Shown: one piece after another, positions 8,784 to 64,000 of the stretch
Layout of the letters: every line of letters begins with the position of its first letter
How positions within the stretch are numbered: the stretch's first letter is position 1
Assembly: GCA_022457155.1 (NCBI GenBank)
Contig: JAJGOT010000214.1
Span: forward strand, 217,501-281,500
Length of the DNA stretch: 64,000 nucleotides
Direction: 5' to 3'
Origin: Cladopsammia gracilis
Lineage: Eukaryota > Cnidaria > Anthozoa > Scleractinia > Dendrophylliidae
Translations under genes and position numbers: made by a program
The notes under the pieces: model-generated
The model's input: the letters and a program-made list of their open reading frames with translations, nothing else
Told to the model about the DNA's origin: nothing
Database searches by the model: none

Positions 8784-11700
8784 TTATAAACTATTCCTAG
8801 GCCTGAATCTGAAGAAATCTTGATGCATTCTGTAACCCTCTATGCGCAAGTAATATAAAACACATTGTGATAAATGGCAAGCAACTGTACTGAGAGACTG
8901 GGTTCGACGAGTAGTACTTGTCCCTGTGGTGTTACGCTTGACTGTAGAGGACGACTGCTGGCCAGCTGTAGTGCTGACTGGGGTAAGTCCTAGGAGTTTT
9001 CTATCCTGAAAGAAAATGTTTCAAGGGTTATTATTTTCCGACAATTTCCGAGGAAGATCCGAAAGTGTTTCGAGCGTGGTTATTTTCCGAAAATGTCCGA
9101 GGAAGATCCGAAAATGTTTTAAGTTATCTGTTTAAAAAACGAGCCAGTAGTGTATTATCAGGTTTAAAAACTCAAGGCGAAGCCGAGAGTTTTTACACCT
9201 GATAACACACGTACTGCGAATTTTTTTGAACGGCTTCAAAAACGTTCGTTCAAGAAAAACAAGTAGACTGATTAGCATACAACACATGTGCCACGTCTTC
9301 GATGAAGTGACCATTGCTTCCCGGCTCCTATCGAAAGTTTTGGGATTTTACAGTTCTGAGGAAAAAATAATCTACTGAAAAATGCTATACCACAGTTGAC
9401 AGGTATGGTAGATAAAACGCCTGACATTTTTTTTTTTCCGACAATTTCCGAGGAAGATCCGAAAGTGTTTCAAGAGTGGTCATTTACCGAAACGTCTCCT
9501 AGGAAAACATGAAAATGTTTAAAAAGACCACAGTAGCGAAATAGAAACACCGGATATCCTCTATTACAGGATCTAATCAGCTATAAAATTATGGTTTGAT
9601 GATAAAGTAAGGTTGATTCCCGGTATGGAAACGACTATATTTGTTAATCCGCCTTGCTTTTTTATCAAATAGTTTCACGAAAATGTCTGCATTTGAAATT
9701 AACACTTGGTTCGGGAGTCTTTCAAGGGATGTCGAACCATTAGACTAGTCTATACACGAAAAAGTTTCCTCTTGCTGCGTCGTTGCAGGGAAAAAACCAT
9801 GCCTCAAGTTGGGCTTTTGCAGTTCTAAGTTACTCAGTTTTTCCGTACAATTGGCTTGCAGTATGTATATATTTTTTCAAAATCACCCAATCCCCCTCCC
9901 CCTAAAAAATCTAGTGGTTCACCCCTAATAGGCTCCTATATAGGGGCACTGAAGATGAAATCGATATCTGCACTTATAATTCAACACATTGATACACTGC
10001 CCAAATATGGTCAAAAAGTTATCGATATACGCTATGTCTACATGATGTCTACGGCCTCGTCGGCTAAGAATAGACGATATCATGCGTGCTTTCGCGCTAT
10101 AATAGTTAAATATGTTGCAATATGATTTTTCGTGGTGGGGGAATTGAAATGTTTAATGTTTATATAAAGTCGCTGAAGTGGCGTATGGCGTATGCGCTCT
10201 TCGTTTGTAAAACAAATGGTAACAACTTACAATCTTAACTGCCTTCGTAACCAATCTTTTCACTGTGCCCACCATGTCTTCAGTGTCTCGCAAACTCTTC
10301 ATATATGTGGCCGAGGGTGTTGTCATGTTCTGAGCACGTGATAGATCTGCTAATGAGTTGGTAAGCAGTTGACTGAAGCCGAGGAAAACTCTTCTGTAAA
10401 ATTCGAGAAGTGTGCTTCTCTGAAAAGTAATCAACATATGAAACATTTTTATTATCCTGTCTGTCATCAGCTATATCAGTCATTATTTCATTATACTGTT
10501 AGCCTCCTTCAGGTCCTCACACCGTAGCTAAGTGTATTAACCACGTTAATTATAAATAAACTATCTATTGTCTATTGTCCTGTCTGTAATTGTGCTATAT
10601 ACACACTTACAACATAAGCATGAAAGCGAGGCCTAATGGCCACATCGCCATTAAAATGTCAGAAGCGCAGCCTATAACTACGACAAAAAACTCTCTGAAA
10701 TGCTGTGCCCCTGCGCTTTGTTATAATCGTTCCGATAATAGGAAAGACTTGACGTTTCATGCATTTCCGAAGGAACCTTACCGAAAGTTAGCTTCTCCAC
10801 CGTCCACTTTTCAACTGACTTTCATTTACTATAACTGCTTCAGGAATATCTTCTAGGGTTAATTTTTAATCCCTAAATCACAAATCGCTCTTGTTTCCGC
10901 CGTCATATTTACTTTTTTTTAAGTTTGCGGTAAGTTTGGTGGCCCTTAAGCCTCGCTTTCATGCTTACGTCGTAAGTGTGTATCGTATAGAGCGTATGCA
11001 CATGACGTCACGGCGGCCATATTGGTGTACCAAAACAATAGAACGGCGGCCATGTTGGTGTACCAAAACAATCCTGTGGGATTTGAACGCTTTTCTTATG
11101 TTAACACTTTCTTTTGTTCCAATAAATTTGCATAGCTGCTTGCCACGTGAGTGCATACGCTCTATAATAGCTAATTTATTATACTGTTAGCGTCTTTCAG
11201 GCTTTCATAGTGGGGTCTAAATAATTGACACAGATCGCTAAATTCGAAAAACGCACACAAACTATAGAGTAAGTAGTAGGACCAAGTCTTACCGATAGAT
11301 TCGTCCAACGTGATCTAGTTAAGTTCATATCTTGCATTATCACAGTTGCAGGTGAGTCACAGGTAGGATTGCAGGAATCAGTAATGCTATACTCAAAATT
11401 CTGCAATAAAAGACTCAACACAATTAAAATGCCAGTATATCAACTCGCTTTATTTTTGCCAAAAAATTTCCCCAAATATCTTAAGAAGAAACACGTGTCG
11501 CCCAAAGTGAAACATGGCAAAAAATTGGATGACATTTGCCTCTAATTTTTAACCCGTGAACATACGCGCATGCGTAATGAACGGGTTATCGGTATCGGCG
11601 ACAGATATGCAAATGAGTCACTCACTCGCTCACTCCTTCCATCAGCTGTAAACTTCGTGACATAATGCTTTGTTACGAATGCGTTTTGTAACAAGAACAG

Positions 11701-14700
11701 CGTGAATCCAGCGATAACAATAACTAAATTGGTGTAAACGAACATAAACAACAATAAGCTTAAAGAGATGTTTCGCATTTGGAGTCTTAAATGCAACGTT
11801 AAAATCGATCTAAAAGGAATTTTCAACCGAGACACGCGTTTTTATGCTTATCAACCTTGAAGTAATAAAATTTATCACGTTTTGAGTCAGTGATCACGGT
11901 GGTCGAATGCTGTAAAGCGCGGACTAACAGCCAAAAGGCCCCAGGTTCGAATCTCGCTCGTACCGTTCTTTTTTTTTATTTCTTTTTCTTTTTTTTTCTT
12001 TCTTCTTCGGACTGAACATTACGAAAGTGATGTACTGTATTTTTCTTTTTGCGTTTGTCAAAAATCCTTACGTTTAATTTTAAAAACAATATTGAATCGT
12101 GTCAGTGTGAAAACATAACAATATTGCAATGTTGCGTTATGCGTTAGCATTTCTTATTCACGAGTTGGCTCTTAGGAGCCTTTGATTTAACACGACCCCA
12201 GACCCCAACTTGACCCTTAACTATCACAGCGAAAACACCACTTTTTGAAGGGAAAATCAAAATTTCGCCCATTTATGAATTACTTTTCGAAAATCCACAC
12301 TCGGATTCGAAAAATATGGTTATTATTCTATCTGGAAACGTCAAAATATTTTAATAACTTAAAAAAAGTCCCGTCATTTGACCTTGAAGTAACCAATGTC
12401 ACGTAAAGGCTTGTATGGAGTTCAACCGCGCGGTCATCGCTTTTAACGGTATTACTCATTTTAATAGGCGTAATGTCAACATCCACACTCGGATTGGAAG
12501 AGACTGGGATCTAGCGAACATTTTAGCGGGAAATAAGATTTAGTCGGAGTGAAAAAAAATCCCGTCATTTTGCCATTTTTTCAGTGCAATATGCTTCGAG
12601 TGAGCCTATTTTGGCTTCATTGATGACTTGCGCGGACTAGCTCCCAGGCTGTTCGAGCTCAACTGCGCATGGGCAATAGTTCATTTTAGTAACATACATA
12701 AAACTTTATTTCATCTCGAATTTCAGCGCACGCCCGCGCACGTGTCCGCACATGTGCGCACGCACGCGCCCGCCCGGAGCAAATGTCTCCTTTCAGGGGG
12801 CAATTTTTTGGTTTGAAACTGTTGATAAGGCAAATGCATTAAGCATTATATCATTCATTTATAACAGTACCTTTCCCTGGATTTACGTACAAAATCTTTA
12901 CCTCCGAAGAAGGGCAAAATTAATGCAAAATGAAAACAATTACTGAATTTTTCTTTTTCTAAAGTACTACATTGTGTATAAATAACAGAACCAAAGGAAT
13001 GCACTGCTGAAGAGCTTCGATTTGAGTCGTCACAATGTATGATTTCATCTTTTTTTGGCTTGATTGACAAAGTTGATTGGCAGTACGTTAAACTAAAAAA
13101 AGGTTTTCTTTCGTTCGTTGGTCGCGTGATATTTGAATTGATACTCTATAGACAAAAAAGTAAGACTTACTGTATAGTTCTCGGCTGTGTATGCTAAGCC
13201 AGCCAGGCTATGCGAAGAAACATATAGAGAATCAACTTTTTTTTCTAACTCCCGATGGAGTGCGATAGTTTCCGAGCATTGAGTCCGGTTACAGCCGGCG
13301 TCTACAGTAGAATTACTGAGGTACACACTCAATAAACATAGCAATAGAAAACAATGACTTGGGTGGAATGTAGCTTGTGAATCTGCAAGAAATATGAAAA
13401 AAAATTGCTTATACTTTCAACTTGTTTATAACAAACTACCACACAAATTGACAGCATCTGTGACAAAACATTTCTGAGTCAAACAAGGAGAAATCTTTCT
13501 TGTTTTTGTGAATGTTTCAGACACAAACAAACGTAATATTACTGACAAGTTTTTAAAGTGGTAAACAAAGTACGACAATGAAATTAAATAAACGCATTTC
13601 AGGATACCGAATAAAGACTTGCAGGTAGACAAAACAATTTAAAGGCGGAGTGAAACAGTATATTACGGGGAATAAATAACACTGAGAAAAAAAAAAAAAA
13701 AGAAAAAAAACAGAACACGCTTTCTAGTTTTAATTATGTTTTTAGGTCGGGTGTTCTTCAGCAATCGTCAGTGAGTCACAAAAGTTCAAGTTGAGCTTGT
13801 GTACCAATAAATATATCATGATTATATATGTTATATATGTTTATCTAACTTATAGCGGTTATGTCCTTTATACTTTATTAGTATTATAAATTGAAATTAA
13901 ACTTTGTAACATTTATTTTTCGAACTGATGATGGAGCGGTAATTATACCGAAACATGTCTTCAAAAAAATAACCTTTTTCTTAAATTCATTTATATTAAG
14001 ACTATGTAATAGTTAGCAATGATCTAACTTTACTTGTAAATAATTCCATTTCTCTTGTAGCGTATTATGAATGCAATGAATAAGTAGCGGAAAGAGAAAT
14101 GATTTCCTTATGGACGAGGGAGGTCCTAGGTTTTGGTATGCAAATATATGATAATTAGGTTGTTTAAAAGTAATGCGTAACGGATATTTAGCCATTGTGG
14201 TTCTGGCACCTTTGTATCGATATCTTCAACGTAATCGAGCTTGAAATTTTTTGTATATGTGCCAGTAACATTTCGCAGGTAGTCGCTGTCATACGCTGTA
14301 CGCTGTACGAACAGTCCGAAAAATTTTCGTTACATAATGCTTTATAGTGATTTCAAATAAATGCGCATTGCATTCCTCCGTGATTTATACATTTCGTTGT
14401 GATCTGCTGTGCATCTATTATCTGTATTCGAGCATGATTGTACCTTATTGGTTTCCAGATTCCCTTAAGTCTCTTTTCAGGATTAGTTTGAGCAATAAAT
14501 GCCCTTTTGCGTTTTAAAAACATTTTTACAGCAGGCATTTGAGTGCAAAAGAAAACAGATGCAAAGAAATTTGCATCAACGAGCATACATTGAAATGTTT
14601 CAATCACGGAGGAATGTAATGCGCATTGATTTGAAATTATTACTGAGCATAACTTTAAAAAAATGAATTTGCAACGCAAACGTTTTGGCCGGCTCATACG

Positions 14701-15424
14701 TCGTCTTCATTATTTTATAAATTTAAAGGCGTTCCAGTGAATCAATGTCAATAAAACTTTCAGACGATATTTTGCACATCGGTAAGCATGCGTGGTGAAC
14801 GTTTAAAATAAATCCATCGAGCCGTTGCTCAGATTTTTGCAGAAGCGATTAAAATCGAAGATTACCCAAAAATTGCACATGAAGCGATATTAAGAAAAAA
14901 GGTAGTTCTCAAGATCGCAAAAGAGAAAGTAAATAAAACTTTGAAGGTGTACAACATCAAGCTACTTTTTGACGCTATCTTTAAGTAATTTCACAAAACC
15001 AGGGTTAATCTCTCGATCAATTTATTACCAGTACACAAATAGCAAGGTTTGAAATGTTATAACGATTTATTTGAAATCAAACATACAGAATTTTTTTATT
15101 TTTGCAAAATATATATGCCATATACCATATTTTAAGATGTCTGTGTGGGATTTTCAATGCGAAATCTTAAACGCGCAAAATTTCACTTTTACTGATTTCG
15201 ACGTCTCTTATTTATCGTCGTCATGGAAAAATCGATTTTACCAGAAAATATATCTTGCCAAACTTCAATTCAAAACCTGGTCCAGTTAGTGGTGAAAATT
15301 TCACGTTGATCTGACTTGTAGAAGACCGCTTAAAAGCTGATTGAAAAAATGTAGGTATGGTCTCCAGAAAACTGTGTCGAAACACCTTAAACAAAGCACA
15401 ATAAATAAACCAATTACCTGCCAT
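8784..15424 (-). CDS. Gene A: secreted helical cytokine-like protein, five coding exons
   Basis: Coding exons (minus): 15424-15418, 13382-13171, 11400-11293, 10419-10231, 9005-8784, giving 245 residues. All introns are GT-AG with phases 1,0,0,0. The ATG is set by the short first exon (ATGGCAG then donor). Residues 1-32 are a signal peptide (FLLLCLLSVYL core). Helix A follows in exon 2; exon 3 is a loop with CNPTC; exon 4 has two amphipathic helices (around LLEFYRRVFLGFSQLL and MVGTVKRLVTKAV); exon 5 has a Ser/Thr-rich loop, then a final helix with ACHLSQCVLYYL. Six Cys remain after the signal (33, 38, 83, 87, 215, 220). At least five N-glycosylation sequons are present. The architecture fits a long-chain four-helix cytokine; no database match was possible. 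Introns carry several transposons. Closest paralogue is B, then C. Exon calls are sound; the cytokine role is inferred. Confidence 0.8.
9151..9216. repeat. Hairpin in intron 4 of gene A
   Basis: GTGTATTATCAGGTTTAAAA and its near-perfect inverse TTTTTACACCTGATAACACA flank a loop of about 13 bases (AAGGCGAAGCCGA). It lies among direct repeats of TTTCCGAGGAAGATCCGAAA (about 9040-9115 and again near 9440), which are intron-4 sequence expanded relative to gene B. Confidence 0.7.
10600..10984 (+). mobile_element. P-element-like MITE carrying a THAP-domain fragment
   Basis: The ends ACACACTTACAACATAAGCA and TGCTTACGTCGTAAGTGTGT are inverted repeats extending about 42 bp inward through TGAAAGCGAGGC. 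The interior has an open frame (10590-10856) whose residues include LKCCAPALCYNRSDNRKD followed by LTFHAFPKEP: the start of a THAP zinc finger (C-x4-C, NR, then FHxFP). THAP domains are the DNA-binding part of P-element transposases. The rest of the transposase is missing, so this is a deletion derivative. Gene B lacks it at the same site in its intron 3, so insertion followed the A/B duplication. Confidence 0.7.
10985..11167. mobile_element. Short MITE with TA flanks in intron 3 of gene A
   Basis: The ends TAGAGCGTATGCACATGACG and CACGTGAGTGCATACGCTCTA are inverted repeats, bounded by TA, consistent with a Tc1/mariner-type TA duplication. The inner part holds two direct copies of CGGCGGCCATRTTGGTGTAC. 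The equivalent site in gene B (about 25673-25683) is empty. It sits immediately next to the THAP-bearing element, so two independent insertions hit the same intron. Confidence 0.7.
11514..12818. mobile_element. About 1.3-kb composite insertion in intron 2 of gene A, with tRNA-like SINE head
   Basis: Gene B runs uninterrupted across the matching point (about 26320, CAAAGTAAAACAAACTGTTG), while A carries some 1.3 kb extra. Inside, 11898-11966 (+) is tRNA-like: an A-box-like TGGTCGAATGC, a B box GGTTCGAATC and then long T-rich runs that could end Pol III transcription. Later parts contain repeats around CACACTCGGATT (12297 and 12484) and a GC-rich alternating purine-pyrimidine stretch (12724-12775). 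No transposase is seen. It is probably several nested insertions. Confidence 0.55.
13921..13962 (+). other. Hammerhead-core-like motif in intron 1 of gene A
   Basis: CTGATGATGGAGCGGTAATT followed by ATACCGAAACATG has the two conserved hammerhead strands (CTGATGA and GAAA) separated by a hairpin that can form GGTA-ATTA-TACC. Motifs of this form occur at the ends of Penelope-like retroelements. The same block is at 27516-27556 in gene B, so it is pre-duplication. Stems I and III are not convincing, so activity is doubtful. Confidence 0.35.
14358..14630. mobile_element. MITE in intron 1 of gene A
   Basis: ATGCGCATTGCATTCCTCCG and CGGAGGAATGTAATGCGCAT are inverted repeats about 25 bp long, enclosing about 215 bp without coding capacity. 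The surrounding stretch 14035-15360 has no counterpart in gene B, whose intron 1 is much shorter here. Confidence 0.7.
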
Positions 15425-15525: not shown

Positions 15526-15655
15526 CTTATATACCCATTTGAAAGTTCCTGGTTTGTCATCTCATGGTCTAATTTAAGATTTTCCTTCCCAACTCTAAAA
15601 GAGGTAGAATGCAGAAAATTCTTTATCCGATGTAGTTTAGGTGTCTTCTGACTCA
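15526..15655 (-). promoter_or_regulatory. Promoter of gene A: TATA and AP-1 elements
   Basis: On the minus strand a TATATAAGG element (15526-15533) lies about 100 bases before the ATG at 15424, leaving a 5' UTR of roughly 75 bases. A consensus AP-1 site TGACTCA reads across 15649-15655 on the plus strand. Both elements, and most of the roughly 300 bp around them, are conserved in the equivalent positions of genes B and C and the orphan copy at 58.5 kb. The conserved neighbourhood also includes CATCCGATGTAGTTTAG-type and GGGAAGTCAAATTTTAG-type segments. Activity is inferred. Confidence 0.65.
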
Positions 15656-23747: not shown

Positions 23748-25117
23748 TCAATTAAGTTGAGAAAATAGTTGAAAATGTTCATAATACGTACGTAAACTTG
23801 AACAACTAATGACGCACATTTACACACAATGAAGCTTTATTTCTAATAAATGCTATTTTCAATTTGTGTACACGACACTAGGAATGTTTTACAACTAAAT
23901 AAATTACATGACATTTAAACTCACTGTACGGTAGTTAATTTTCTGAATAATTTTGCACATTGTTTATTTTCATTGGAAATGTCCTTTTGAAATCTGAATT
24001 AATAACAATCATAGATTCTATGATAACTGTCCCACCGACAATATAATGAAGTTAACGTTACGGTAACTAAATTAATTTACTTAATATAAACTAAGCTTGT
24101 ATTGAGAGGTATTAAATTAACACCAAGTAAAATCTAACATCCAAACGCGGTATCAGTTAGAATGGAAAAAGTCGTGCACTTGATTTACAAACTATTTCTG
24201 ATTCTGAAGAAATCTGCAATCATTCTATAACACTCTATAAGTAAGTTGTCTAAAACACATCGTGATAAATGGCAGGCAACTGTACTGAGAGACTGGGTTC
24301 GACGAGTACTTGTCCCTGTGGTGTTACGCATGGCTGTAGTGGACGACTGCTGGCCAGCTGTAGTGCTGAGTGGGGTAAGTCCCAGGAGTTTTCTATCCTG
24401 AAAGAAAATGTTTTAAGGGTGGTTATTTTCCGAAAATTTCCGAGGCAGATAAGAAAATGTTTTATAAAATGGTCATTTACTGAAACCTCTTCGAGGAAAA
24501 TACGAAAAGGTTTAAAAAGACCACAGTAGCGAAATAGAAACACCGGAACCTACATGTATAGTACGGGATCTAATCAGCTTTAAGATAACGATTTGATGAC
24601 AAAGTAAGGCTGATTCACGGTACGGAAACGACTATGCCTTGCTTATTTATCAAATCGTTTTACGAAAATGTTTGCATTTAAAATTAACACCTTTTGGTTC
24701 GTTACGAATTTAATAGAGCAGGAGTCTTTTAAAGGTATTGAACCATCAGACCAGTTTATACTCGAAATTGTTTCCTTTAGCTTTGTCACTGCACGATTAT
24801 TTTTGGCTGAAATAACCAAGCCTCAAGTCTGGCTTTCGCAGTTCTAAGTTATTTCAATACAGTTGGCTTGCAGTATGTAAATTGTTGAGTCAAAATCACC
24901 CAAACCCCCTCCCCTAAAAAATATATTGGTTCACTCCTAATAGGCTCCTAAATAGGGGCACTGAAAATGAAATCGATATCTGCACATGTGTCAACTGAAA
25001 TATGATTTTTCGTGGTGGTGGAATTAATGTGGTTTATGTTTATATAAATTCACTGAAGTTTGTATAATAAAGAGGCGCATGCGCTATTGGTTTGAAAAAC
25101 AATGGTAGCAACTTACA

Positions 25118-25314
25118 ATGGCCCTTATCGTAGATGAGTACGCCAGGCCAACATATCAGCGGTTTCTCGCTTTCTTGACCCTATAGTCTCGTTTTGATGT
25201 TTACGCTCACCGTCGTCAGAGGTTCTCGCAAACATCAAAACGAGACTAAAGGGTCAAGAAAGCGAGAAACCGCTGATATGTTGGCGTAGCGTACTCATCT
25301 ACGATAAGGGCTAT
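25118..25314. mobile_element. Palindromic element inserted in exon 4 of gene B
   Basis: The arms, about 85 bp each, run from GGCCCTTATCGTAGATGAG to GTCTCGTTTTGATGTTT and back, with a loop of about 26 bases near 25204-25229. Removing it gives a sequence collinear with gene A (ACTTACAAT...ACTGCCTTCG). The arms differ at few positions (for example GCCAGGCC against GCGTAGC), so the insertion is fairly young. It has no coding capacity. Confidence 0.8.
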
Positions 25315-27337
25315 TGTCACTGCCTTCGTAACCAATCTTTTCACCGTGTCCACCATGTCTTGCAATTTCTTCAGATATGTGGCCGGTGTTGTCACGTTCT
25401 GAGCACGTGATAGATCTGCTAATGAGTTTGTAAGCTGTTGACTGAAGCCGAGGGAAGCTCTTCGGTAAAATTCCAGAACTGTGCTTCTCTGAAAAGTAAT
25501 CAGCATGTGAAACATGCTTATTATCCTGTCTGTCATCATGCTATTTCATTATTTCATTAAATTAACTGTTAGGCCTCTTTCAGGCTCTCGTACCATAGCT
25601 AAGTGTATTGACCACGTTAATTATAAATAAACTATCTATTGTCTTTTGTCCTGTCTGTAATTTTGCTATATCGTATAATAGCTACATATATTCATTATAC
25701 TGTTAGCCTCTTTCAGGCTCTCGTAGTGGGAACTAATCAGTAAAACGTGAAAGCAATCAACGCGAACACAATTTAAACGCAGGAAGACAGTCTCTGACCA
25801 TTTGATTTTCGCGTTCGCGATCTCCATTAAACGAGAGCCTCGAACAAGCAAATCATTCATGGATTAAATAATAAACTATGGAAGGAAGTGATAATTAAAT
25901 TTCCAAAAAGAATGGTCAAAATTGTAATGGATTACGTATTTAATTGTTACCAAACTTGCGATGATAATATCAATTTTCATGAAAGCGTCTGTATAGCAGT
26001 TAGAAACTAATCTCATCATACATCTTTGCTGAGGGGGGATCTCTAAATTCGAAAAACGCACACAAACTAGAGTACGTAGTACAACCAAAGTCTTACCGAT
26101 AGATTCGTCCAACCTGATCTATTTAAGTTCATATCTTGCATTATCACAGTTGCAGGTGAGTCACAGGTAGGGTTACAGGAATCAGTAATGCTGTACTCGA
26201 AATTCTGCAATAAAAATACTCAATACAATTAAAATGCCAGTTTGTCAACCCGCTTTATTTTTGCCTAAGATTTTCCCTTAATATCTTAAGAAGAAAACAC
26301 GTGTTGCCCAAAGTAAAACAAACTGTTGATAAGGCAAATACATTAAGCATTATATCATTCATTCATAACAGTACCTTTCCCTGGATTAACGTAAAAAATC
26401 TTCACCTCTGAAGACGGGAAATATTAATGCAAAATGAAAAGAGAACTGAATTTCCTTTTTGTAAAATACTACATTGTATATAAACAACACAACCAAAGAA
26501 ATGTACTTCTGAAGAACTTCCATTTGAGTAGTCACAATGTATGATTAACAAAGTTGATTTTGCTGCAATTCAATTCCAATCAATTCAATTCGATTGAACT
26601 TGAAAAAAAAATTTTTTTCCGTTAACATTTATGGTCATTTGTATTTGAATTGATACTCCATATTCATATAGACTTACTGTATAGTTCTCGGCTCTGTATG
26701 TTAAGCCAGCCAGGAGACGCGAAGAAAAATATAGAAATTGAACATTTTTTTGCAACTCCCGACGGAGTGCGATGGTTCCCGAACATCGAGTCCGGATGCA
26801 GCCGGCGTCCACAGTAGAATTACTGAGGTACACACTCAATAAACATAACAATAGAAAACGATGACTTGGGTGGAATGTAGCTTGTCGTGAATCTGCAAGA
26901 ATGTAAAAAAAAAATTGCTTATAAGTTCGACTTAATAATAACAAACTACCACACAGTCAAATTGACAGCATCTGTAACAAAACATTTCTGGGTCAAACCA
27001 GAATAAATCTTTCTTGTTTTTGTGAATGTTTCAGACACAAACAAACGTAATATTACCGACAAGTTTTTAAAGTGGTAGACAAAGTACGACAATGAAATTA
27101 AATAAACACGTTTCAGATACCGAATAAAGACTCGTAGGTAGACAAAACGACTTAAAGGCGGAGTGAAACAGTATATTACGAGGAAAAATAACAGCTTTGA
27201 GAACAACAAGAAAAAAAACCAAGAGGAGAACACGCTTTTTAGTTTGTTTTTAGGTCGGGTGTTATTCAGCAATCGTCAGTGGGGCACAAACGTTCAAGTT
27301 GACCTTGTACAACTATAAATATATCATTATTATAAAT

Positions 27338-27433: not shown

Positions 27434-27923
27434 CTAATGTATAGCTGGTATGTCCTTTATACATGTCCTTTAAGTATTATAAATTCAAATTCAACTTTGT
27501 AACATTTATTTTTCGAACTGATGATGGAGCGGTAATTATACCGAAACATGTCTTCAAAAAAATATCCTTTTTCTTAAATTCCTTTATATTAAGACTATAT
27601 AATAGTTAGCAATAGTCTAGCCTTACTTTTAAATAACTGCAGATTAATGTACAACACCCGAAACATGCATGTACTACAAAAAAGCGTGTTTTGCTTCTTG
27701 TTCGCAAAGCGCTTTCTTGCTTGCTTGCTCTTCTATAGCACATGAACTTTTCCTTACAGATTTTGACAGTGGGTAAAGAGAAACTTAAACAAACCACTAT
27801 AACTAAACCAATTACCTGCCATAATTCAGGATAGCACTTGTTTCTTCTTTTTCTTGTTGTAGATGGTTGTGCTGTGCACTCTGATCTTTTAAATTGGAAT
27901 GAAAAATTGTCCAAATTGCCATT

Positions 27924-40078: not shown

Positions 40079-43000
40079 CTAGGAGCACAACGTCTTGGCA
40101 ACTATCATGAAATCCAGTTGCATTTCGAAGAGGTTAGTGTACAAATCTTCCATCGTAGCGGACGCTCGCAGAGCTATCCCTTGAAGTGTTAAAGTTGTTG
40201 CCTGTGGTTTTCCTTGCTGTGCTGCCGCGGAGCTCTGGGTACTAGTGTTAACAACACCAGAGCTGCTTGTTGCATTAATGACAACGCTTATGCTGGGACG
40301 AACGACCGCTGTACGTGGTTGTCCAGACTGCAAAAGAAGAGAAAAAGTGTTAGATAGCAGGGAAATTAAACATTAAACTGTTTTAGATAGAAAAGATGAG
40401 GTTAAAAGGACCCGACAGAGTGTATTAATATAATCTAATTTTAGGAAACAGCACCTTTTCAAATGGTTTAAGTTGGCTGAACACAGTTTTACTGTACCTA
40501 TGCATCATTAATTGTTATTTTAAAACCGCTAACGTCTGGGCGCCCAAAATTGGCGAGACACAAGATTAAGCAACAAGCTTTATATTTTGATATTTTTGTC
40601 GAGATTTAAGGGTGTTGCCATGGCAACAAAGTGGATTGTAAATCAGCCTGCAATATTTGGTTTCGTTTATTTTTAGAAAATCTAGTCGTTAGATTTTGTC
40701 CATCATTTGTCTTCAGTAAACTCGTAAAAATATTCGCATGTTAACACTGGTCTCATGTAATTTTAACAGAGGGATCTTTCGTAATTTGTGGTTTAATATG
40801 TTTGCGTTTTGTAGAAATCTCCTCTGTTAGATTGCAATTTTTTCATGGCAGGTGAGTTCGGCATATTCGGAAATATTATTGTGCCAAATTTCGTGAAATT
40901 CTAACCAGTGGTTCCGTAGAAATCAGCACATTTCCGAGGAAAGTCGCTAAAATATCCAGTCAAAATTTTTTGGTTAACTGCGCGTGCGTTGCATTTGACT
41001 GGGCTCTCGATCCAAGCACAAAAAGGACCAAAAGGCAGTGTATTTCTTCAATGGTTCTATAAATTATCTATTGATTCAACAAACATTGTTACGAACAACA
41101 AATTGTTTGATTTTAAGACGAAAAACAACACTATCGCGGTCCACGCTGAGCAAAATAAAATGATCGCTGAATAGGTGCCACGCTTGTTTTTCTCAAAACT
41201 CTGCACGTGCTGACTCTCGTAAGCAGCTGAAATTGAAAAGCGCGTGCAAACTGTGTTCAGCCACCTTAAACAAACGACTTTAACATGTATCTGTACGTTG
41301 ACTTCAGTAAATGCCGGGGTATGTGACCAAGTAATTACGACATTTAATTCATGTGAATCTGGAGAGAGTTGTATCCTTTTACATGAAATGGCGTTAATCA
41401 ATTACAACACAAAATCACTGAAATTGTTTCGCCAACAAGGCCTTGAGTTAATAGAGCAACCGGGCTCTTTGTTGGTATTCAAACATTTAATAATGAAACA
41501 ACTTAATTCACTGATTAGAAAAGAGTTACCTAAAACGTTTGCCTACAGCGAACAAAGATGAACTACAAAATAACTTTAAAAACTTACCTCTAGGAGCACA
41601 CTTTGAATCGCTTGAATAAAATATATGATATTTCCAACTGCCCATTTTATCTGTTGTAGCTGATATGTTACATCCCTGGCGACTGAAAAGGCACCGAATT
41701 GTCTTTTGAACTTGGTTATGTGCTGCATATACACCTTTAAAATTCGTCGGTTTACTTCCAATGTGCTTTCAGGCTGTGAAGATTAAAAACGTACGTATAT
41801 ATGGTATGATGTATTTATTAAAATTGCTAACAGTCACCGAAATAAACTTTACTAGCCGTGTTAGACTAGATATTTTCTTTCTGTGTATATAATCTTAATC
41901 ATAAATGAACGTATGTAATCGGTGACACGGTTTTTACAAAAGACGGAGACAATCCAATGGACCAATCAGAACGCAAAGCAAATACACGTGACCTGCTCGT
42001 TTTGTTTTAATACTTCTGCACTTCTGAGTGGTTGAAAAATTGGTGCGTAGTGATACAGAAATGAAAGAGAACGCAAATTATAATAGCCACTAAAAAGCAG
42101 ACAGCTAGATTTTCAACCGAAAAGTGTTATTTATTTTTTCAGTCAGTACCTAGGCTAAACAGCTTACCATTTTAAGAAAATGGAATATAAATACAGCTAT
42201 TTCAATTAACGTTATCGGATGAAAGTTTCAAGTCAAGACCGCAAGGTAGTATGGGATTTTTATGCACAAAGTCACCAAAATCACCAATAATCAATAAGGA
42301 AAAAAATCACCAATAAGGAGGTTAAGGAACGACGGCAACACCAAGGAAACGTCACTGGTAAAAAGTATTCGTGCTATTTTAAAATACTTTGCAGTTGTCC
42401 CAGTTTGTTTAGTTTGTCTAACGTGACTGGTTTGTATAGGAGCTCAATTTGTAGGGACGGCTTTCAAGTTGAAATGGAGACGGGAATATTAACCATCGGG
42501 TGTTCATGTTCTCCACAAGAACTATAATTTGACGTTGTTGTTTTTTGTATGACGTTGTTGTTTAGAACAGGAGGCAAACGTCCATAGCACTGCCGCCCAT
42601 TTATCGTCGCGCCCGCACTGACCAACGAAATTTAGATCATGGCTACCCATATTACTTTGCAGTCTTGACTTGAACCGAAAAAGTGTTATTTATTGTTTCA
42701 GTGTACCAAGGATAAACAGTTTACTATTTAAGATAACGGAATATAAATATTCCTTAGAGCAAAATGTTACAAACTTAGGACACATACATCATGAGGATGG
42801 TTAAAGATATTTTAACAAATCAGTATAATTGCGTTTTTAAATTCTATTTTACTTATTGTTTACAAGCATAATCGAAAAAATAGATAAATGTTCTCACCGT
42901 TGTTTTATTTATGTTTCGTGGACTGGCAAATTCCGATATCTGTATGTCTGATAATCTGTATAAGTTGTTCTTGAGCCAGCGGTTTACCTACGATGAATGC

Positions 43001-44941
43001 AAAAATGTTGTACTGAATTATTTGTACTGGATATTTAAAAAGAAAAGCGTCCTAAAAACTGACTTTTCATTACTCTTACTCTTAAGCTATATTTCAAGAG
43101 CATTTCTTGTTAGCTCATACCGTCTTTAGTAGCTGTTCCCTTTTCCTTGACACACATTTGGGTAAAGTGTGACGTTAACCGCGGTCAAACGAGAGAAATT
43201 TTGCAAAATCATTTTCACTGTTTAAAGTTTAATATATTTCCAATACACTGTCAATTTACCAAACGTTTTGAAAGTTTACCAAAAAAGTTCCAAGCGTTTA
43301 AAAACTGTGAACTGCAGAATTGTCGGCGCCATTTGCCAACAATCAGGCGCAAAGAGTTTTGGTCAGTTTTCAACGGATAAAAGCTTATTATTTTGAGAAA
43401 AATTAAACGATAGTAACGTCAACTATTTTTTTTTATACATCCTTGCCCATGTTTCCATTTAATATTGAATAAAATCTCACTTAATAAAACGAAAAACGCC
43501 TTGTACGTTTGACCGCGGTGGAAGTTTGACGACAATCGGTTCAGTGGTATGTTAAAGAGATATGATGTCATAAATAGCATGAGGTTAAGCCATTTTTGAA
43601 TAATAATGCGTATTTTTCACCTCTTTTTGGTGAAAAAAGCATATGAAACGCTACCAAAAGAGCAAAATGGTTAATTATATTTATAGCTTCCTAATGTTTT
43701 CGATAACTTTGAATTTTTAGCAAAATCTAAGATGGCGGCCATTTTGGATCACGTCACGGACCCCTAGCAGTGCCATAACCCATAATATTTACTTTCTTTT
43801 GTAGAGCACATCATAGGCTCCCTTTTAGAAGTGATATGTTTCCAATATATGCAACCGCCCTTGTATCCCCCCCTCCCGCCCCCATGTAACACAATGAGTG
43901 TATAAGTTTACGTGTAGGTCCGAGGGTTAAGTAGCCTTTCTGGCGTAGTTAACATGTGCAAAATTAAAAAAAAAAGATATGTTATCACATGCATAAAGAG
44001 TATTCAAATGAGAGTCGTAAAACTAAAACCATTTTAACAGACGCAAGCAATCCAATGAAGCTATCAGAACTCGAAGCAAACACATGTTACCGGCGGAAAT
44101 CACGCGAGAACGTGCGCGAGTAAGCCCAGCGTGTAAATCACGATTGCTTTTGGTTTATCTTCCAGCTGGCTGATTACTGAGTGACGCGAGACTTTTTAGC
44201 CAATCACAAAGCGTAGCAATGCAACACGTGTTTAAAGCAAATGCGATAATTTCGATACTCAATTGAAAACCCCTCTAAATGAGTAATAAATCGACCGCCA
44301 TTTTTGAAAAAGGTCTACAAATAGGCGTCCGGACTCTTATTAATGGCTTTCTTTCTTATTGAGATACATCAATCGCCTAAAACAGAGAATTGTATTTAGC
44401 ATGCAGTTTTTCCTGCTTTTGAAGGATAAGCACTTCCATCGCAAAGATGACTTGCTGACTGAGAGAATTACTTGTAGATCCCACCATGTTATGGACCCAC
44501 TAGTTATTTCAACATGTCACCCAGAAAAGTATGCAAGAAGTTAAAACGATTAAAAACAGAATTTTGAATTTTTTCAGACAGTGGCGAGGCCCCTCTTGGC
44601 ATTGAAAGTTTCACATCTATATGGCTAGGTTAAATAGATTATATGGTGTCATATAAAAGCAGAAATACCGTAAAAGATACTTACAATTGTTTCCTTTGTT
44701 TTAACCAGTTCCACTCCCAATTTACGCAACATCGGCTGTATGCTGTTCAACATAAATCTCGTGTTGTTATTAAGTTGACATCTGGTCACAGTTCGAGCCA
44801 TGTTGACGTTGATGAGTATACAAACTAGTATCATCAGAACTACGAGCAAAGGAAAAATAATAAAGAAAGTAAGGATAGAAGAAAGAAAGGAACGAATCGA
44901 CAACGAACTTACGATGCGAACGAACAAACAAATGATTGAAT

Positions 44942-45751: not shown

Positions 45752-46357
45752 CCTATGTAATACCGAGAAATTCTATATTCTATTTAAACCGGACATGGCA
45801 ACACTTAACAAGCGTAGCGAGCTTATATCAACTTGCAGGCACAACCGTAAGTTCCTACTAAAATTCAATCGCATCCTTAATAACCAATCATAAGTTTACA
45901 AACGTATATCCCTATTGTTTTTACGTTTGAATATTGTAACGGCTTCGGTGAAGATCATGTTGCTGATGTATATAAACTCTAACGAAACTTTAGTGTGTAT
46001 GGAAATTAACTGATGAGTGGATCAACGCTTTGTTGGTCTACGAAACAGTTCTGTATTAAAAAGTCCATATGAAACGATATTGAGTAGAAACACTTTGTTA
46101 TTACCGCTCCATTACTGCAGACAGTACTGCCGGCCTTCTGGGCCTCATGAGCGCAGTGCTGATGTTGGAGTTGAAGTTAGGCTATATAGCCACGTATATA
46201 ATACACGTATAAAGCTACGTCTGTGTCTTTAGCAGAAAATATTTTATCCAAATAAAATTAACGAAAGGAGCAAGTCCAACCTTAAGCTGAAATCAATTGC
46301 AAAATCAACAATTTTAAGGCAGCCAGGGCTTACAAATGTTAGAATACCTTTCATCAT
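40079..46357 (-). CDS. Gene D: secreted helical cytokine-like protein, second subfamily
   Basis: Coding exons (minus): 46357-46348, 44839-44685, 42987-42898, 41773-41588, 40327-40079, giving 229 residues with phases 1,0,0,0. Exon 1 (ATGATGAAAG then GTATTC donor) was found by matching the phase-1 acceptor of exon 2 and the first exon of E. Residues 1 to about 18 are a signal peptide ([17 protein letters not shown]). Cys24 precedes helix A; exon 3 is a loop; exon 4 has two helices and starts [20 protein letters not shown], aligning with RSTLLEFYRRVF of A; exon 5 has a Ser/Thr/Gln-rich loop and a last helix ending IVAKTLCS. Cys24 and Cys228, one at each end, recall the N- to C-terminal disulfide of erythropoietin and growth hormone. 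Exon 3 is the least certain, but its frame and donor are kept in gene F. A TATA box lies upstream. Cytokine role inferred. Confidence 0.75.
40468..41269. mobile_element. TTAA-bounded DNA element in intron 4 of gene D
   Basis: The ends TTAAGTTGGCTGAACACAGT and ACTGTGTTCAGCCACCTTAA are inverted repeats with TTAA at each edge, the target duplicated by piggyBac-type transposases. Gene F lacks it: only about 105 bp separate its exons 5 and 4, against about 1.26 kb in D. Other material also arrived on either side. The open frames inside lack transposase motifs. Confidence 0.65.
44943..45004. repeat. (TA)n microsatellite
   Basis: An uninterrupted AT/TA run of about 62 bases in intron 1 of gene D, directly abutting the hammerhead-like sequence. 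A second run is at 45711-45750. Confidence 0.9.
45002..45064 (-). ncRNA. Hammerhead-ribozyme-like sequence at the end of a small retroelement
   Basis: On the minus strand CTGATGA is followed by GGCC-CAGAA-GGCC (stem II), GAA and then ACAGTACTG-TCTG-CAGTACTGT (stem III, fully paired), ending TA at the expected cleavage position. The core nucleotides are all present. Upstream ATCAGCACTGCA is shared with the degenerate copy at 46.1 kb, but the sequence beyond the cleavage site differs ((TA)n here), so the element ends exactly at the cleavage site. That explains the missing second strand of stem I, which a dimeric transcript would supply. Such ribozymes are known in Penelope-like elements and animal retrozymes. 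Activity untested. Confidence 0.6.
45264..45330 (-). repeat. tRNA-like sequence, not a functional tRNA
   Basis: On the minus strand GTCTCAG and CTGAGGC can pair as an acceptor stem, GCC-TAGTGGTAA-GGC forms a D arm and CCGGGTTCAACTCCCGG a T arm. The segment between the D and T arms is about five bases too short for a proper anticodon arm plus variable loop. It is therefore a tRNA pseudogene or a SINE head. It lies within intron 1 of gene D between inverted repeats. Confidence 0.6.
45347..45565. repeat. Inverted repeat with 35-bp arms
   Basis: CACATTTGTGGCTTCATAGT plus GGAAAGCTCTT is mirrored by AAGAGCTTTCC plus ACTATGAAGCCACAAATGTG. The interior of about 150 bp includes short direct repeats of AATTAGTGAAAA. 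It is probably a MITE nested in intron 1 of gene D. Confidence 0.75.
46113..46170 (-). ncRNA. Degenerate second copy of the hammerhead-like element
   Basis: It has the same stem II (GGCCCAGAAGGCC) and stem III remains as the copy at 45.0 kb, but the catalytic strands are mutated: CTGATGA has become CTCATGA and GAAAC has become GGC. It should be inactive. Its upstream side (ATCAGCACTGCG) matches the first copy, which defines the shared element body. Confidence 0.6.
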
Positions 46358-51471: not shown

Positions 51472-51670
51472 AATAGGCCATTTTCGAGTTGCCTTTAGCC
51501 TCTCTATCAAAGCGAGGCTAGGTGCGAAACCTTTCATATGAAAATGAGTTTTCATTCACATGCAAATAAGTTGTATTTGCATGTGAATGAAAACTCATTT
51601 TCATATGAATGGTTTCGCACCTAGCCTCGCTTTGATAGAGAGGCTAAAGGCAACTCGGAAATGGCCTATT
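51472..51670. repeat. 199-bp near-perfect palindrome just after the stop codon of gene E
   Basis: The left arm begins AATAGGCCATTTTCGAGTTG and the right arm ends CAACTCGGAAATGGCCTATT. The centre (about 51570) has almost no loop. It starts about 113 bases past the gene E stop codon (51783), so it is likely part of the 3' UTR, where it would fold into a hairpin with arms of nearly 100 bp. By structure it is a palindromic MITE. Confidence 0.85.
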
Positions 51671-51782: not shown

Positions 51783-52909
51783 TTAGGGACAAATTTGTTT
51801 CTTGGTGATTTTTAAACTTTTATAGACAGACCGAAGCTTTCCTAAAATCTCTGCCAAAATAGCCTTCCCACGACTCACTGCGATGCTGATAAATCGTCTA
51901 CCGTTTCCCAAGGCACTCTGGGAGCGGACAGTGCAACTGGGTGGAACACAGATGCTGTCTGCGGTTTGATTGGCTGGCTGTGGCTGTAAGATAAATCGGA
52001 AAAAAAAACATAGTCATAAAACGTAGTTTATAGAATACTGCAAGCTAAGGAAAAGACATAAGAGCGCGTTTGATTGACAGTATTCCAGAGTACACAGAAT
52101 GGTGACCAAAAATCGTTCATGTTATAAGCTTATTTTGGCAGGTTTATATTGCAAATGGCCTGAAAAGACAATTTTACAGAGACTATCCTCTTTTTCGTAT
52201 TCCGGAATACGGTCAATCGAACGCGTCCTTAGATTGCATTTTGCATTGGCCCTGATGAATATACAGTTGACTGCTAAGGCAACTCGATTATTTATTTTAC
52301 AGACTGATGAACTTCGTTAAATCGTATTGGAACGCTTTAGTTCAGACGTAGGAAAGAGTGCCATTTTTCCAATCTCTTGCAAAACAAACATTAAATCTAT
52401 TAAGAAGTTTTATTAAATTATTTCATGGGAAAATTGATTAAGAGAATGACTGAGCTTCCCTTTTGTGGACCAAAAACCGTGCCCGTGGAGCAGGATTTCA
52501 CTGCAATTTGATCTGATGTTCTATCAAGTATAAACAAACAATTGTAGTTTCGATGCAAAAAGGGTTGATATAAAATTGAACAAAAGAATGGATTCGCTGT
52601 CTTAGAGTTCTTACCAAATGCAACGTGTCTCGTGCTTCCTGAAAATGTCGGATGAGATTCTTGCTGTCCCACCTTAAATCTTTTAACTTATGAACAATGC
52701 CTTTTGTGTTAGGTACTGCGCCAAATTCTGTTATGGTACAAGTAAGCAATAGCAGGAATGACTCCAGAATACAATGATCAACCTTCAGGCGGGTTTGCAT
52801 CTACAGTCGATAAAAAACAATAAAGATGTAAGATTCATTACAGTAGTGGAAATAATTTTACAAACGATACTATCCCACATACTATACTCTTTTGAATTTA
52901 TTTAGGTGA

Positions 52910-52946: not shown

Positions 52947-55582
52947 ACAATGGCGAGCCGAAGGCGAGCCATTGTAAACGCCCATACAGATCGGACGCGA
53001 ATATTTTATCTGACTTATGACATGAAACAATGAGTAGAGATCTGTATGAAAAGTTAATGCATACTAATTAGCTCAGCAGAGATCTGTATCAAAAGTTAAT
53101 GCATACTAATTAGCTCAGCAGACATCTGTATCAAAAGTTAATGCTACTGTTTAATAATTCATCAACTCAGTTGATCTGTATTGGGGTTTACAAACCTTCA
53201 TTAAACATTCATTTCTTTTGTATTTTCCTTATGAATTATTAATGAATTTTATAATTATAATTAGAAGTTATTTGGGACGGTTTGCACAGACATACATATA
53301 CGCAAATGAAAGATTTTGTCTAATTGAAATATCATAGTTTTATAAATTCTAATGATATGTAGCATTACTAAAAATAATCATTCTTACATTGTCACTTGCT
53401 CGGTGCGACAAACTGATGAAGAGAGGATAGTTTGCCTGCCCGTATTGTCCCGGCCAGCGGGCATTCTATAACAACAAACAAACGAATCAGAAAAAAAATT
53501 GGCATTTAGCAACCACGAAAATTAAAGTATGAGTGCAATTAAGGTCAATGTTGAATGAGATATTTCATAAGAACTGATGTTATTAAATTGATACAGTAAC
53601 TTTACTGATTTGGATATTGAAAGTTTTGAATGAATCTCTTCAAGGGAAACTTCACTCACAGTTAAAACAAATTGACGTTAAATGGTGAAAATAAAGTCTT
53701 AATTTTAATTCTTTTAATCCTATTTTGCGTAGGGGGGGGGGGGGGAGGATTGTGCTTGCGCTGACTTTCAACATTCATAATATTTTTAATGTGTATTCAA
53801 ACGCCATCAAACTTTGTGACTTTCCTAAAATGTATCTGGCATCAATTCGGTCATTTCATTGATCACGTGATTTGATGTGATCACGTGATTTGATGTTTCC
53901 ATGTCAACAAGATTTTGACAGCCATGTTTTTTAAATATGCATATTTTTACCTTTGAATGAAGAAACACAATGTTTATTCGTAGAACGTTTTACATTTTTA
54001 TGTAACTTCGCGTTTATTTATTGGTTTTGATTAATTGTGAGTCAATTTGGATGGTTTTTAAGAGGTTTTAAAAAAATTCAGAAATCCAAGATGGCGGATC
54101 CAAGATGGTGGTCGTATCACTAATTACCTAATAACTACGTCATATGACGTCATCATTTCACTGTGCGGACCGCACTGAAAAAAAAGGAACTCAAAAAAAG
54201 CCCAGGCAAAATAGGGTTAATAAGAAGTTAAATTATAATTTTTGTGTAATATTACTTAAATTGGATACATCGTTATTTCCGCTTGTACATTTCTCGCGCG
54301 TCGTCATTTTGAATCGTTGGCAAAAATAAACGTCGATTCTCAATAACCGTATGACGTCATATAAATTGAAAATAGCGGAGCGCGGGAAGTTTAAAAGCGA
54401 AAATAGGTGATATTCATATCCAATTTTGTTTGAACACTGAAATTTTCTTTCCATCTGTTATAAAAGAATCGAAATCTAGACTATATTTCCAACAATTGAC
54501 GTCAATTTGTTATAACAATGGAGGTTCCCTTCAAATCAAAGCTTTTTCAGCCCTTACTCAAAATTCAAGAAAATCCTGAATTTTATTGTCTACAAAACTT
54601 AAATGATATTACCACAGTAAAGAACTGCTTCAGTTGTATGTGGCTATTGTTTGAATGGTCGCACAGTTAGGTTTCATACACAGCAGATTGTGCGACTAAA
54701 TGTATTTTGTAAGCTGTGAACTAGGTCATATATTTTTGGCTTGAGGTATGTAAACTGGCTGACTTAAGTTATTAGTTTAATACGTTGCCCTTTCCTTGCC
54801 TTAACATTTCTTAACTAGACAACCGTTCTCTTTTGTGAGAAAAATGATCCCCCCCCCCCCCCCCTCTTAAAGATCCTAGACGTATTTAGTTTATGACGAT
54901 AAATGCGATCACCCTAATATGAGGCGTTTAACTACGTTAAATAACTTTTTCATCTTTTGGAAGAATAGCTGTTCTTTTTGATAGGATAGCCTGAACAAAA
55001 CCAAAAACTATTAATAACCACGTCTTTCATTATATCATGGGCTTTCAAATTTCTTCGACAAGAATATTGAAGGAACTTACAATCTGGCTTATGCTGTTTG
55101 TGATATCTGTGCTTAGGTTCTTCAACAACAGCAGCATTTCAGATATTAAATCCTTTGAGCTTTGATCAGTCTGTATACACGTTTGAGGATTGCTGACAGG
55201 AACAGCTCTAGCGATGGCGAGGGTAACAAACAGAAGAAAGCAAGTCTTCTTGAATCCTGCAATAAAAATAAATGAAAAGATATTTTTTTTGTTATTATGT
55301 ATGACTGACATTCAATTTTGAGCTCCAAAGTTAGAAAAAAAGTTTTTTTAATGGTTTGGATGGCTTTTCAGCACTGAAAACTATGTTTATTAAAAGCAAC
55401 TAAACTACATTTTTTATGTTGCCCGCAAGAAATATGGGAATTCTTTTTCAGTTCCAATTTTAACATTTTAGACCAACCACAATCCTTAACGATTTGAAGT
55501 ATATAAATGTGATTTACTGTTCTTGACAGGATCTTTACCAGTTTAAATAACATAGTTCGCAACTCCTACCTTTCATCTTCAT
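51783..55582 (-). CDS. Gene E: secreted four-helix cytokine-like protein, the clearest member
   Basis: Coding exons (minus): 55582-55570, 55256-55081, 53465-53388, 52800-52615, 51983-51783 (13, 176, 78, 186 and 201 bases), giving 217 residues. Introns are GT-AG with phases 1,0,0,0. The signal peptide is about residues 1-22 (KKTCFLLFVTLAIARA). Helix A (about 37-63) has DLISEMLLLLKNLSTDI. Exon 3 is the A-B loop. Exon 4 holds helix B (VDHCILESFLLLLTCTI) and helix C (DSKNLIRHFQEARDTLHL). Exon 5 opens with a Pro-rich loop (ICVPPSC) and ends in basic helix D (KAILAEILGKLRSVYKSL). Cys31 before helix A and Cys216 at the C terminus could form the end-to-end disulfide typical of erythropoietin-like proteins. 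Exon lengths and phases mirror human EPO from memory. No homology search was possible; the cytokine role is inferred. Confidence 0.85.
52930..52992. repeat. Perfect hairpin in intron 3 of gene E
   Basis: GATCTGTATGGGCGTTTACA plus ATGGC is mirrored by GCCAT plus TGTAAACGCCCATACAGATC around a loop of about 13 bases. GATCTGTAT also begins the units of the neighbouring tandem repeat at 53034, so the two are probably parts of one repeat. Confidence 0.8.
53034..53146. repeat. Tandem repeat, 42-bp unit, nearly three copies
   Basis: The unit is AGAGATCTGTATCAAAAGTT then AATGCATACTAATTAGCTCAGC. Two full copies and one partial are nearly identical. It sits in intron 3 of gene E. Confidence 0.85.
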
Positions 55583-55669: not shown

Positions 55670-55689
55670 TCATTCATCCGAAGGCACTT

Positions 55690-58431: not shown

Positions 58432-58505
58432 TAAATACTCGCTGTATATAAAACATTACACACATTCTATTGTTAATAACTATTAAACAACTCACCAGCT
58501 ACCAT
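58432..58505 (-). pseudogene. Orphan first exon of a C-type gene
   Basis: ATG at 58505 opens ATGGTAGCTG followed by a GTGAG donor (exon end 58496), again phase 1. It is the duplicate of gene C's first exon at 36855. The homology stops at 58432, where a (TTA)n run starts, so no exons 2-5 follow. A transcript from here could in principle splice to the phase-1 acceptor of gene E exon 2 at 55256; that is speculation. Confidence 0.6.
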
Positions 58506-58606
58506 AGCTCGGGATAGCACTTCTTTGTTCTTTCTTGACAAGATTCTTGTGTTGTACACTTTGTGATTTGAAGTTTGAATGGAGCATGATGTTCCATACA
58601 TTCATC

Positions 58607-58728
58607 CTTATATTCTCATTTAAAAGATCCTGCTTTGTCATGTCACGTTCTAATTTAAGATTTGCCTTCCCAACACTAAAAGACGTAGAAATTCTTTATC
58701 CGATGTAGTTTATATTTCTTCTGACTCA
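58607..58728 (-). promoter_or_regulatory. Orphan copy of the C-type promoter
   Basis: An ATATAAGGATG element (58607-58613) and TGACTCATCAAGC (AP-1 at 58722-58728) sit at the same spacing as in genes A, B and C. The promoter has kept these sites despite losing its own gene body. Confidence 0.55.
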
Positions 58729-62824: not shown

Positions 62825-64000
62825 CTAGGAGCACAACGTCTTGGCAACTATCATGAAATCCAGTCGCATTTCGAGAAGGTTGGTGTACAAATCTTCCATC
62901 ATGGCGGACGCTCGCAGAGCTATCCCTTGAAGTGTTAAAGTTGCTGCCTGCGGTTTTCCTTGCTTTGCTACTGCGGAGCTCTGGGTACTAGTGAGAGAGC
63001 TGCTTGTTGCATTAATGACAACGTTTATGTTGGGACGAACGACCGCTGAACTTGATTGTCCAGACTGCAAAGGAAGAGAAAAAAATGTTAGTTAGAAGGG
63101 AAGTTGGACATTATATTCAGTTTTGTGATAGAAAAGTTACTTAAAACGTCTGCCTACAGCGAACAAAGATGAACTACAAAATAGCATTAAAAAAACTAAC
63201 CTCAGGGAGCACACTTTGAATCGCTTGAATAAAATATATGATATTTCCAACTGCCCATTTTATTTGTTGTAGCTGATATGTTACATCCCTGGCGACTGAG
63301 AAGGCACCGAATTGTCTCTTGAACTTGGTTAAGTGCTGGATACACACCTTTAAAATTCGTCGGTTTACTTCCAATGTGCTTTCAGGCTGTCAAGATTAAA
63401 AACATACGTATATACGATATGATGTATTTATTAAAATGCTAACACTGAAATAAACTTTACTAGTCGTGTTACACCAGATTCAGCTGAATATTTTCTTTTC
63501 TGTGTTTATCATCTCAATCATAAATAAACGTATACATCCGGTGATACGCTTTTCACAAAAGACGCGGACAATCCAATGGACCAATCAGAACGCAAATTAA
63601 AAGCAAATACACGTGACCTGCTCGTTTTGGTGCTAAGTGATGTAAAAATGAAAGAGAACGCAAGTTGTAATAGCCCCAAGAAAGCAGACACTTAGATTTT
63701 GATCCGAAAAGTGTTATTTAGGTGCACCTAGGCTAAACAGCTTACCATGTAAGTTAATTGCGGAATATATAAATAAATTATTCTTTAAAGCAAAATGTTA
63801 CAAACTTAGGACACATACATTATGAGGAAGGTTAAAGATATTTTAACAAATCTGTCATGCTTTTTTAAATTCTATTTTATATTATAAGCATAATCGGAAA
63901 AAAAATAGATAAATGTTTGTTCTCACCGTTGTTTTATTTATGTTTTGTGGGCTGGTAAATTCCGATATCTGTATGTCTGATAATCTGTATAAGTTGTTCT
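62825..64000 (-). CDS. Gene F (partial): duplicate of gene D
   Basis: Exon 5 (63064-62825, 79 residues plus stop), exon 4 (63386-63201, 62 residues) and the 3' part of exon 3 (to 63927) lie within the window; exons 1-2 lie beyond it. Splice phases equal those of D. Exon 5 differs from D at about a dozen residues and lacks three codons in the Ser/Thr-rich loop, but keeps IALRASA, the last helix and the terminal KTLCS. The exon 4 donor is GTTAGT rather than GTAAGT. All visible frames are open, so F is probably functional. Exon 3 frame conservation supports the D exon 3 call. Confidence 0.75.

Follow-up and report, generated by a model that had tools for sequence, protein, structure and literature searches.

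A tandem gene cluster of the stony coral Cladopsammia gracilis, part of which lies in the 64,000-nucleotide stretch analyzed here (the window; positions 217501–281500 of contig JAJGOT010000214.1, below called C492), probably encodes a cnidarian family of secreted helical cytokines resembling the long-chain class I type. This interpretation is partly supported: the anatomy of the genes argues for it well and profile comparisons with known cytokines weakly, and the fold and the ligand role of the proteins are predictions from sequence. The layout and intron phases of the genes match those of long-chain class I cytokine genes and not those of class II, and the paralogues that were compared are under purifying selection.

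Extent and gene models of the cluster

In a sequence-only reading, the window had been described as carrying six minus-strand genes or gene remnants (A–F), each with five coding exons. We read the minus-strand letters base by base and rebuilt the gene models with explicit splice sites. The window contains the whole of genes A, C, D, and E, each of five coding exons whose reading frame is open on the minus strand. Of gene F it contains part of exon 3 and exons 4 and 5; exons 1 and 2 of F follow, intact, within the adjoining 10 kb of contig. Gene B retains all five exons, with exon 4 broken by a 203-bp palindrome and reading through in-frame stops, so that the term gene remnant fits it. The observation of A–F is thus borne out, but the count of six understated the cluster, which comprises 12 copies, 11 of them open, at ∼226–341 kb of C492. 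Six more copies, oriented like those of the window, lie to the right of F: four E-type genes (E2–E5) and two D-like ones (G and H). A search of C492 117.5–471.5 kb, less its runs of N, yielded no further convincing copy outside 226–341 kb. When the whole genome was queried with the D-type protein of Desmophyllum, all seven matches fell inside the cluster; because this query missed the E-type copies and G, diverged copies may exist elsewhere. Much of the window is covered by long tandem duplications, and its sequence is eukaryotic, with introns and a GC content of 33–38% from 4 kb on. Two palindromes, the one that breaks gene B (25115–25317) and another at 51472–51670, resemble fold-back transposons, as does a 508-bp inverted pair with 95% identity (49981–50488 with 50880–51385).

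The five-exon structure holds in A, C, D, E, and F, and their 20 introns have phases 1,0,0,0. Across the 11 open copies, introns 2–4 are invariably in phase 0; phase 1 of intron 1 was read directly in five copies and deduced in the other six from an exon 2 that opens on the remaining two bases of a codon divided by the intron, exon 1 of these six copies, for which none was modeled, having been read by eye. In all five modeled copies, exon 1 consists of the start codon within only 7–10 nt, and exon 4 measures 186 nt in eight of the 11 open copies. All 38 modeled introns in the 11 copies are GT-AG, an agreement that is not independent support because the models were picked for it. The predicted proteins have 213–248 residues, and a hydrophobic N terminus of the secreted type was recognized by eye in all open copies (A, C, D, E, F, E2–E5, G, and H). 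Exon 2 encodes this signal peptide and predicted helix A, exon 3 the A-B loop, exon 4 predicted helices B and C, and exon 5 a Ser/Thr-rich C-D loop followed by predicted helix D. The ratio of nonsynonymous to synonymous substitution (dN/dS) is 0.35–0.64 in each of the eight paralogue pairs compared, of 55 possible among the 11 open copies, and these pairs are therefore under purifying selection. Gene B was excluded from the alignments, the dN/dS calculations, the tree, and the intron count.

Family relationships and upstream regions

The D-type protein has relatives in Desmophyllum pertusum (OS493_011865, 57% identity over 99% of the query), Oculina patagonica (ACROYT_G005622, 54% over 83%), and Pocillopora damicornis (LOC113673860, 44% over 96%), and the A-type protein in Desmophyllum (OS493_011864, 49% over 98% of the query) and Oculina (LOC144641423, 53% over 69%). 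The E-type exon 4 was matched in two further public contigs, one of which equals in length (472,555) the contig carrying a D-type exon 5 match. These independently annotated coral proteins of D and A type span the same exon junctions as our models. The named relatives belong to three species, all of them stony corals (other match rows carry no species name), which supports calling the family cnidarian, as the sequence-only reading had done. The A-type and D-type genes of Desmophyllum have adjacent locus tags on contigs of equal length, which suggests that the pairing of A and D genes is probably old. In the public model of Pocillopora LOC113673860 (P0003), a second exon-4-like stretch follows the D-type domain, as if two adjacent copies had been fused in annotation, and this hints at a cluster in Pocillopora as well.

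In a tree of the family, the public proteins fall with the A or the D type, D groups with F, and the E copies group together; the branch leading to G is long, and the tree leaves six of its 13 inner branches open. In tblastn, the exon 4 sequences of D and E from the window itself find each other at 0.002–0.004, and relatives of D and E (P0009 and P0001) find the other type at 9e-6 and 2e-5; all of these values apply to a database of window size, with composition statistics turned off. The D/E/G/H-type profile (A6, built from 12 proteins) aligned with the A-type profile (A4) across exons 4–5 with an hhalign P of 1.6e-5 and a probability of 79%; A4 against profile A5 alone gave a P of 0.0034. 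By these sequence comparisons, the A type and the D/E/G/H types form one family. In A6, a Cys before helix A and a C-terminal Cys are nearly invariant and a Trp in the A-B loop is invariant; in the A type, Cys residues within the A-B loop and ahead of helix D are conserved, and Cys ahead of helix A is mostly so. Alignment-averaged amphipathic windows reached p < 0.02 (permutation, uncorrected for ∼440 windows) at helices A, B, and C of A6 and at helices A, C, and D of A4, whereas helix D of A6 and helix B of A4 fell short of this threshold. Viral contigs scanned with A5 and phage records scanned with D contained no relatives.

We also read 13 upstream stretches, those of the 12 copies and that of an orphan exon 1 near 58.5 kb, beside which tblastn found no further A-type exon. 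A TATA box lies 78–115 bases before the ATG in eight of the 13 (A, B, D, F, E2, E3, E5, and H). The AP-1-type site TGAGTCA precedes the ATG by 219–232 bases in four cases (A, B, C, and the 58.5-kb copy) and by 130 bases in G, counted with no chance control. The four are mutual duplicates (A, B, C, and the orphan), and further conserved blocks are kept in the A/B/C upstream region. A 100-nt block upstream of exon 1 is present at 16198–16297 (A), 28571–28670 (B), 37643–37742 (C), and 59337–59436 (orphan), is 64–96% identical to the reference copy, and is a candidate enhancer. The orphan exon 1 and its promoter block (58496–58505, extending upstream to ∼60 kb) lie inside a stretch that repeats the C-D interval.

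Likeness to known cytokines and rival explanations

The genes for EPO, thrombopoietin, growth hormone, IL-6, and G-CSF have five coding exons with intron phases 1,0,0,0; a few codons make up exon 1, the signal peptide shares exon 2 with helix A, helices B and C fall in exon 4, and helix D falls in exon 5. The coral genes are like them in exon number, in phases, and in the order of helices per exon. Like the D/E/G/H types, EPO has one Cys preceding helix A and another following helix D; neither EPO/TPO nor GH1 gave a significant profile match to the coral profiles. The vertebrate LIF and CNTF genes have fewer exons than the coral genes. The class II genes of the IL-10 and interferon-lambda type share with the coral genes five exons, helical secreted products, and tandem clusters; they differ in having no split codons and all introns in phase 0, apart from an extra phase-1 exon 1' in IFNL2/3 (PMC2654155), whereas the coral intron 1 is in phase 1. 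The earlier claim of a long-chain class I exon order is supported by gene structure and by a phase pattern unlike that of class II, and the profile match to the CNTF family adds weak support.

That match comes from tests in which the hhalign score of a coral profile was set against the scores of column-shuffled profiles; results are given below as the number of shuffles reaching the real score. A6 aligned with the CNTF/CLCF1/CTF1 family profile, whose members are similarly long and helical, end to end with helices A to D in register, and this score was reached by 0/100 and then 1/600 shuffles. A4 likewise aligned collinearly over its full length with LIF, including paired Cys residues ahead of helix A and Cys within the A-B loop, and scored 0/100 against a profile of human and mouse LIF. 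Identity between the coral proteins and the CNTF/CLCF1/CTF1 and LIF sequences is 12–21% in these alignments, and ordinary searches missed them. Ten single vertebrate cytokines, in 20 comparisons, were mostly null, with A4-LIF, A4-IL6, and A6-CTF1 each at 0/60; with more shuffles, A4-LIF stood at 2/200 and A4-IL6 at 3/200. Single G-CSF gave 1/60 with A6 and 12/60 with A4, and single GH1 12/60 and 28/60 with the two profiles. Both profiles gave null results with the decoys ferritin, myoglobin, and apoE. As method controls, pairs of known sister families scored 20/60 (LIF/OSM-IL6), 28/60 (EPO/TPO-LIF/OSM), 23/60 (IL6-CNTF), 2/60 (CNTF-EPO/TPO), and 0/60 (LIF/OSM-CNTF), and because known cytokine sisters were often missed, the method is a weak one.

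Several results weigh against the proposal that these proteins are class I-like cytokines. Neither single proteins nor the profiles A4, A5, and A6 retrieved a cytokine from Pfam or PDB by sequence; in PDB, the top rows for A6, with E values of 0.16 and above, consisted mainly of short helical bundles and designed proteins. A4 gave 1/100 and then 11/300 with the CNTF family, 9/100 with LIF/OSM, and 13/100 with human and mouse IL6; A6 gave 35/100, 34/100, and 10/100 against the LIF, LIF/OSM, and IL6 family profiles; and the EPO/TPO profile yielded 26/100 with A6 and 34/100 with A4. Against single sequences, A6 scored 51/60 with CNTF, 11/60 with EPO, 20/60 with LIF, and 40/60 with leptin, and it reached 0/50 with single IFNA2, a class II cytokine. 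Because 50 comparisons with cytokines or decoys, some of them repeats, were made in all, one result at 1/600 makes the CNTF-family match no more than suggestive as a signal of homology. The receptor and JAK models PF09240, PF09067, and PF17887 had no match in the genome, in a search in which the genes sought are split by introns and no control genome passed the cut-off. In favor of the proposal, JAK and STAT have been reported in Cnidaria (PMC13203501, PMC13337447), as has the orphan class I receptor CRLF3 (PMC6797617).

A rival view is that the secreted helical proteins form a family peculiar to cnidarians, such as antimicrobial, matrix, or allorecognition factors, whose cytokine-like exon plan arose by convergence. 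The failure to match a known family in Pfam or PDB, the restriction of named relatives to stony corals, and the borderline nature of the cytokine profile matches all speak for convergence; we nevertheless hold it to be rather unlikely, as the five exons, the phases 1,0,0,0, and the helix-per-exon order agree jointly with the class I long-chain layout, and the CNTF-family alignment keeps all four helices in register. Kinship with class II helical cytokines of the interferon/IL-10 type would equally account for five exons and helical products, and with A6 the single IFNA2 result was accompanied by one of 4/50 for single IL10. The two-member profiles were negative, however (interferon, 22/200 with A6 and 23/150 with A4; IL-10, 170/200 and 19/150), and the split codon at the coral intron 1 stands in contrast to the class II genes described in PMC2654155. 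Intron phase and profiles together lead us to consider a class II origin improbable, the phase-1 exon 1' of IFNL2/3 meaning that phase alone is no proof.

The broken gene B, the orphan exon 1 at 58.5 kb, and the fact that the models rest on DNA could also be taken to mean that we are dealing with non-functional repeats, or with unrelated open frames wrongly joined. This is barely credible, being already contradicted by 11 open copies, by dN/dS below 1 in all eight pairs, and by independent coral protein models that cross the same junctions. A family of secreted, long-chain class I-like cytokines is the explanation we favor. We put at about even the chance that its members are true homologues of the bilaterian long-chain class I cytokines. 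In that case the ligand, its exon plan, and its tendency to expand in tandem would be older than the divergence of Cnidaria from Bilateria, and one of the proteins might represent the missing type of ligand for orphan receptors, CRLF3 among them, that cnidarians have in common with humans.

The secreted-type N terminus, the exon plan, the Cys residues, and the promoter motifs lead us to read the cytokine-like genes as encoding inducible secreted ligands. Each protein would fold as an up-up-down-down four-helix bundle, held in the D/E/G/H types by a putative disulfide between the Cys just before helix A and the Cys after helix D and pinned in the A type by predicted Cys pairs involving positions ahead of helix A, within the A-B loop, and ahead of helix D. 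Release may occur on demand from the short TATA promoters, the A type using the shared AP-1-type site. The ligand could then bring together two receptor chains of the fibronectin type on its target cell, and JAK and STAT might carry the signal in immunity, stress responses, or repair. Among the known systems set beside the coral family, the Drosophila Unpaired (Upd) proteins are invertebrate ligands named in the insect JAK/STAT pathway (PMC13203501).

The core of the cytokine pathway looks older than its known ligands, and a cnidarian class I cluster would fill this gap. If shape and function are confirmed, messengers of the EPO/IL-6 kind would be pushed back to animals such as corals, the orphan CRLF3 would gain a candidate class of ligands, and coral immune signaling would become directly accessible to study. 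No description of such genes in Cnidaria was present among the literature matches listed, whose scope excluded bioRxiv and most subscription papers.

Feature coordinates and neighboring sequence

The exons of genes A–F are listed in the table together with the insert in gene B, the orphan exon 1, and the AP-1-type site of gene A.

Table. Features of the cytokine-like cluster; positions refer to the window except where the contig is named
Feature	Position	Strand	Remark
Gene A exon 1	15418..15424	-	ATGGCAG, phase-1 donor
Gene A exon 2	13171..13382	-	signal peptide and predicted helix A
Gene A exon 3	11293..11400	-	A-B loop with C-N-P-x-C
Gene A exon 4	10231..10419	-	predicted helices B and C
Gene A exon 5	8784..9005	-	C-D loop, predicted helix D, stop
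TGAGTCA (AP-1-type site)	15649..15655	-	∼230 bases upstream of gene A ATG
Gene B exon 1	27816..27822	-	
Gene B exon 2	26678..26892	-	
Gene B exon 3	26097..26204	-	
Gene B exon 4, interrupted	25117..25488	-	in-frame stops
Palindromic insert, 203 bp, in gene B exon 4	25115..25317	.	self inverted match 88.7%
Gene B exon 5	24185..24397	-	
Gene C exon 1	36849..36855	-	
Gene C exon 2	35554..35771	-	signal peptide and predicted helix A
Gene C exon 3	35096..35203	-	A-B loop
Gene C exon 4	33686..33862	-	predicted helices B and C
Gene C exon 5	32493..32729	-	C-D loop, predicted helix D, stop
Gene D exon 1	46348..46357	-	
Gene D exon 2	44685..44839	-	signal peptide, Cys, predicted helix A
Gene D exon 3	42898..42987	-	A-B loop with conserved W
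Gene D exon 4	41588..41773	-	predicted helices B and C
Gene D exon 5	40079..40327	-	C-D loop, predicted helix D, C-terminal Cys, stop
Gene E exon 1	55570..55576	-	
Gene E exon 2	55081..55256	-	signal peptide, Cys, predicted helix A
Gene E exon 3	53388..53465	-	A-B loop
Gene E exon 4	52615..52800	-	predicted helices B and C
Gene E exon 5	51783..51983	-	C-D loop, predicted helix D, C-terminal Cys, stop
Orphan exon 1	58496..58505	-	duplicated A/B/C-type promoter
Gene F exons 1–2	C492 near 284.2 kb and 283.8–284.0 kb	-	
Gene F exon 3	63927..64000	-	runs past window
Gene F exon 4	63201..63386	-	
Gene F exon 5	62825..63064	-	with stop

Elsewhere in the window, a tandem array with a unit of ∼91 bp occupies 19906–20869, and a tRNA-like stretch at 45259–45324, near (TA)n runs, scores 51.9 bits with Rfam and is negative with ARAGORN. 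Runs of N on C492 lie at ∼212.5–217.5 kb, just left of the window, at 360–367.5 kb, and at 445–450 kb. Left of the window, C492 117.5–172 kb contains several open frames that we take to be ZNFX1-type-helicase-like, of the RNA-defense type, and C492:187474–190332 holds a 953-residue open frame that is presumably class C G protein-coupled receptor-like, of the calcium-sensing/glutamate receptor type. To the right of the cluster, at ∼372–392 kb, lie transposon-like open frames, which we assume to be Polinton/Maverick-like.

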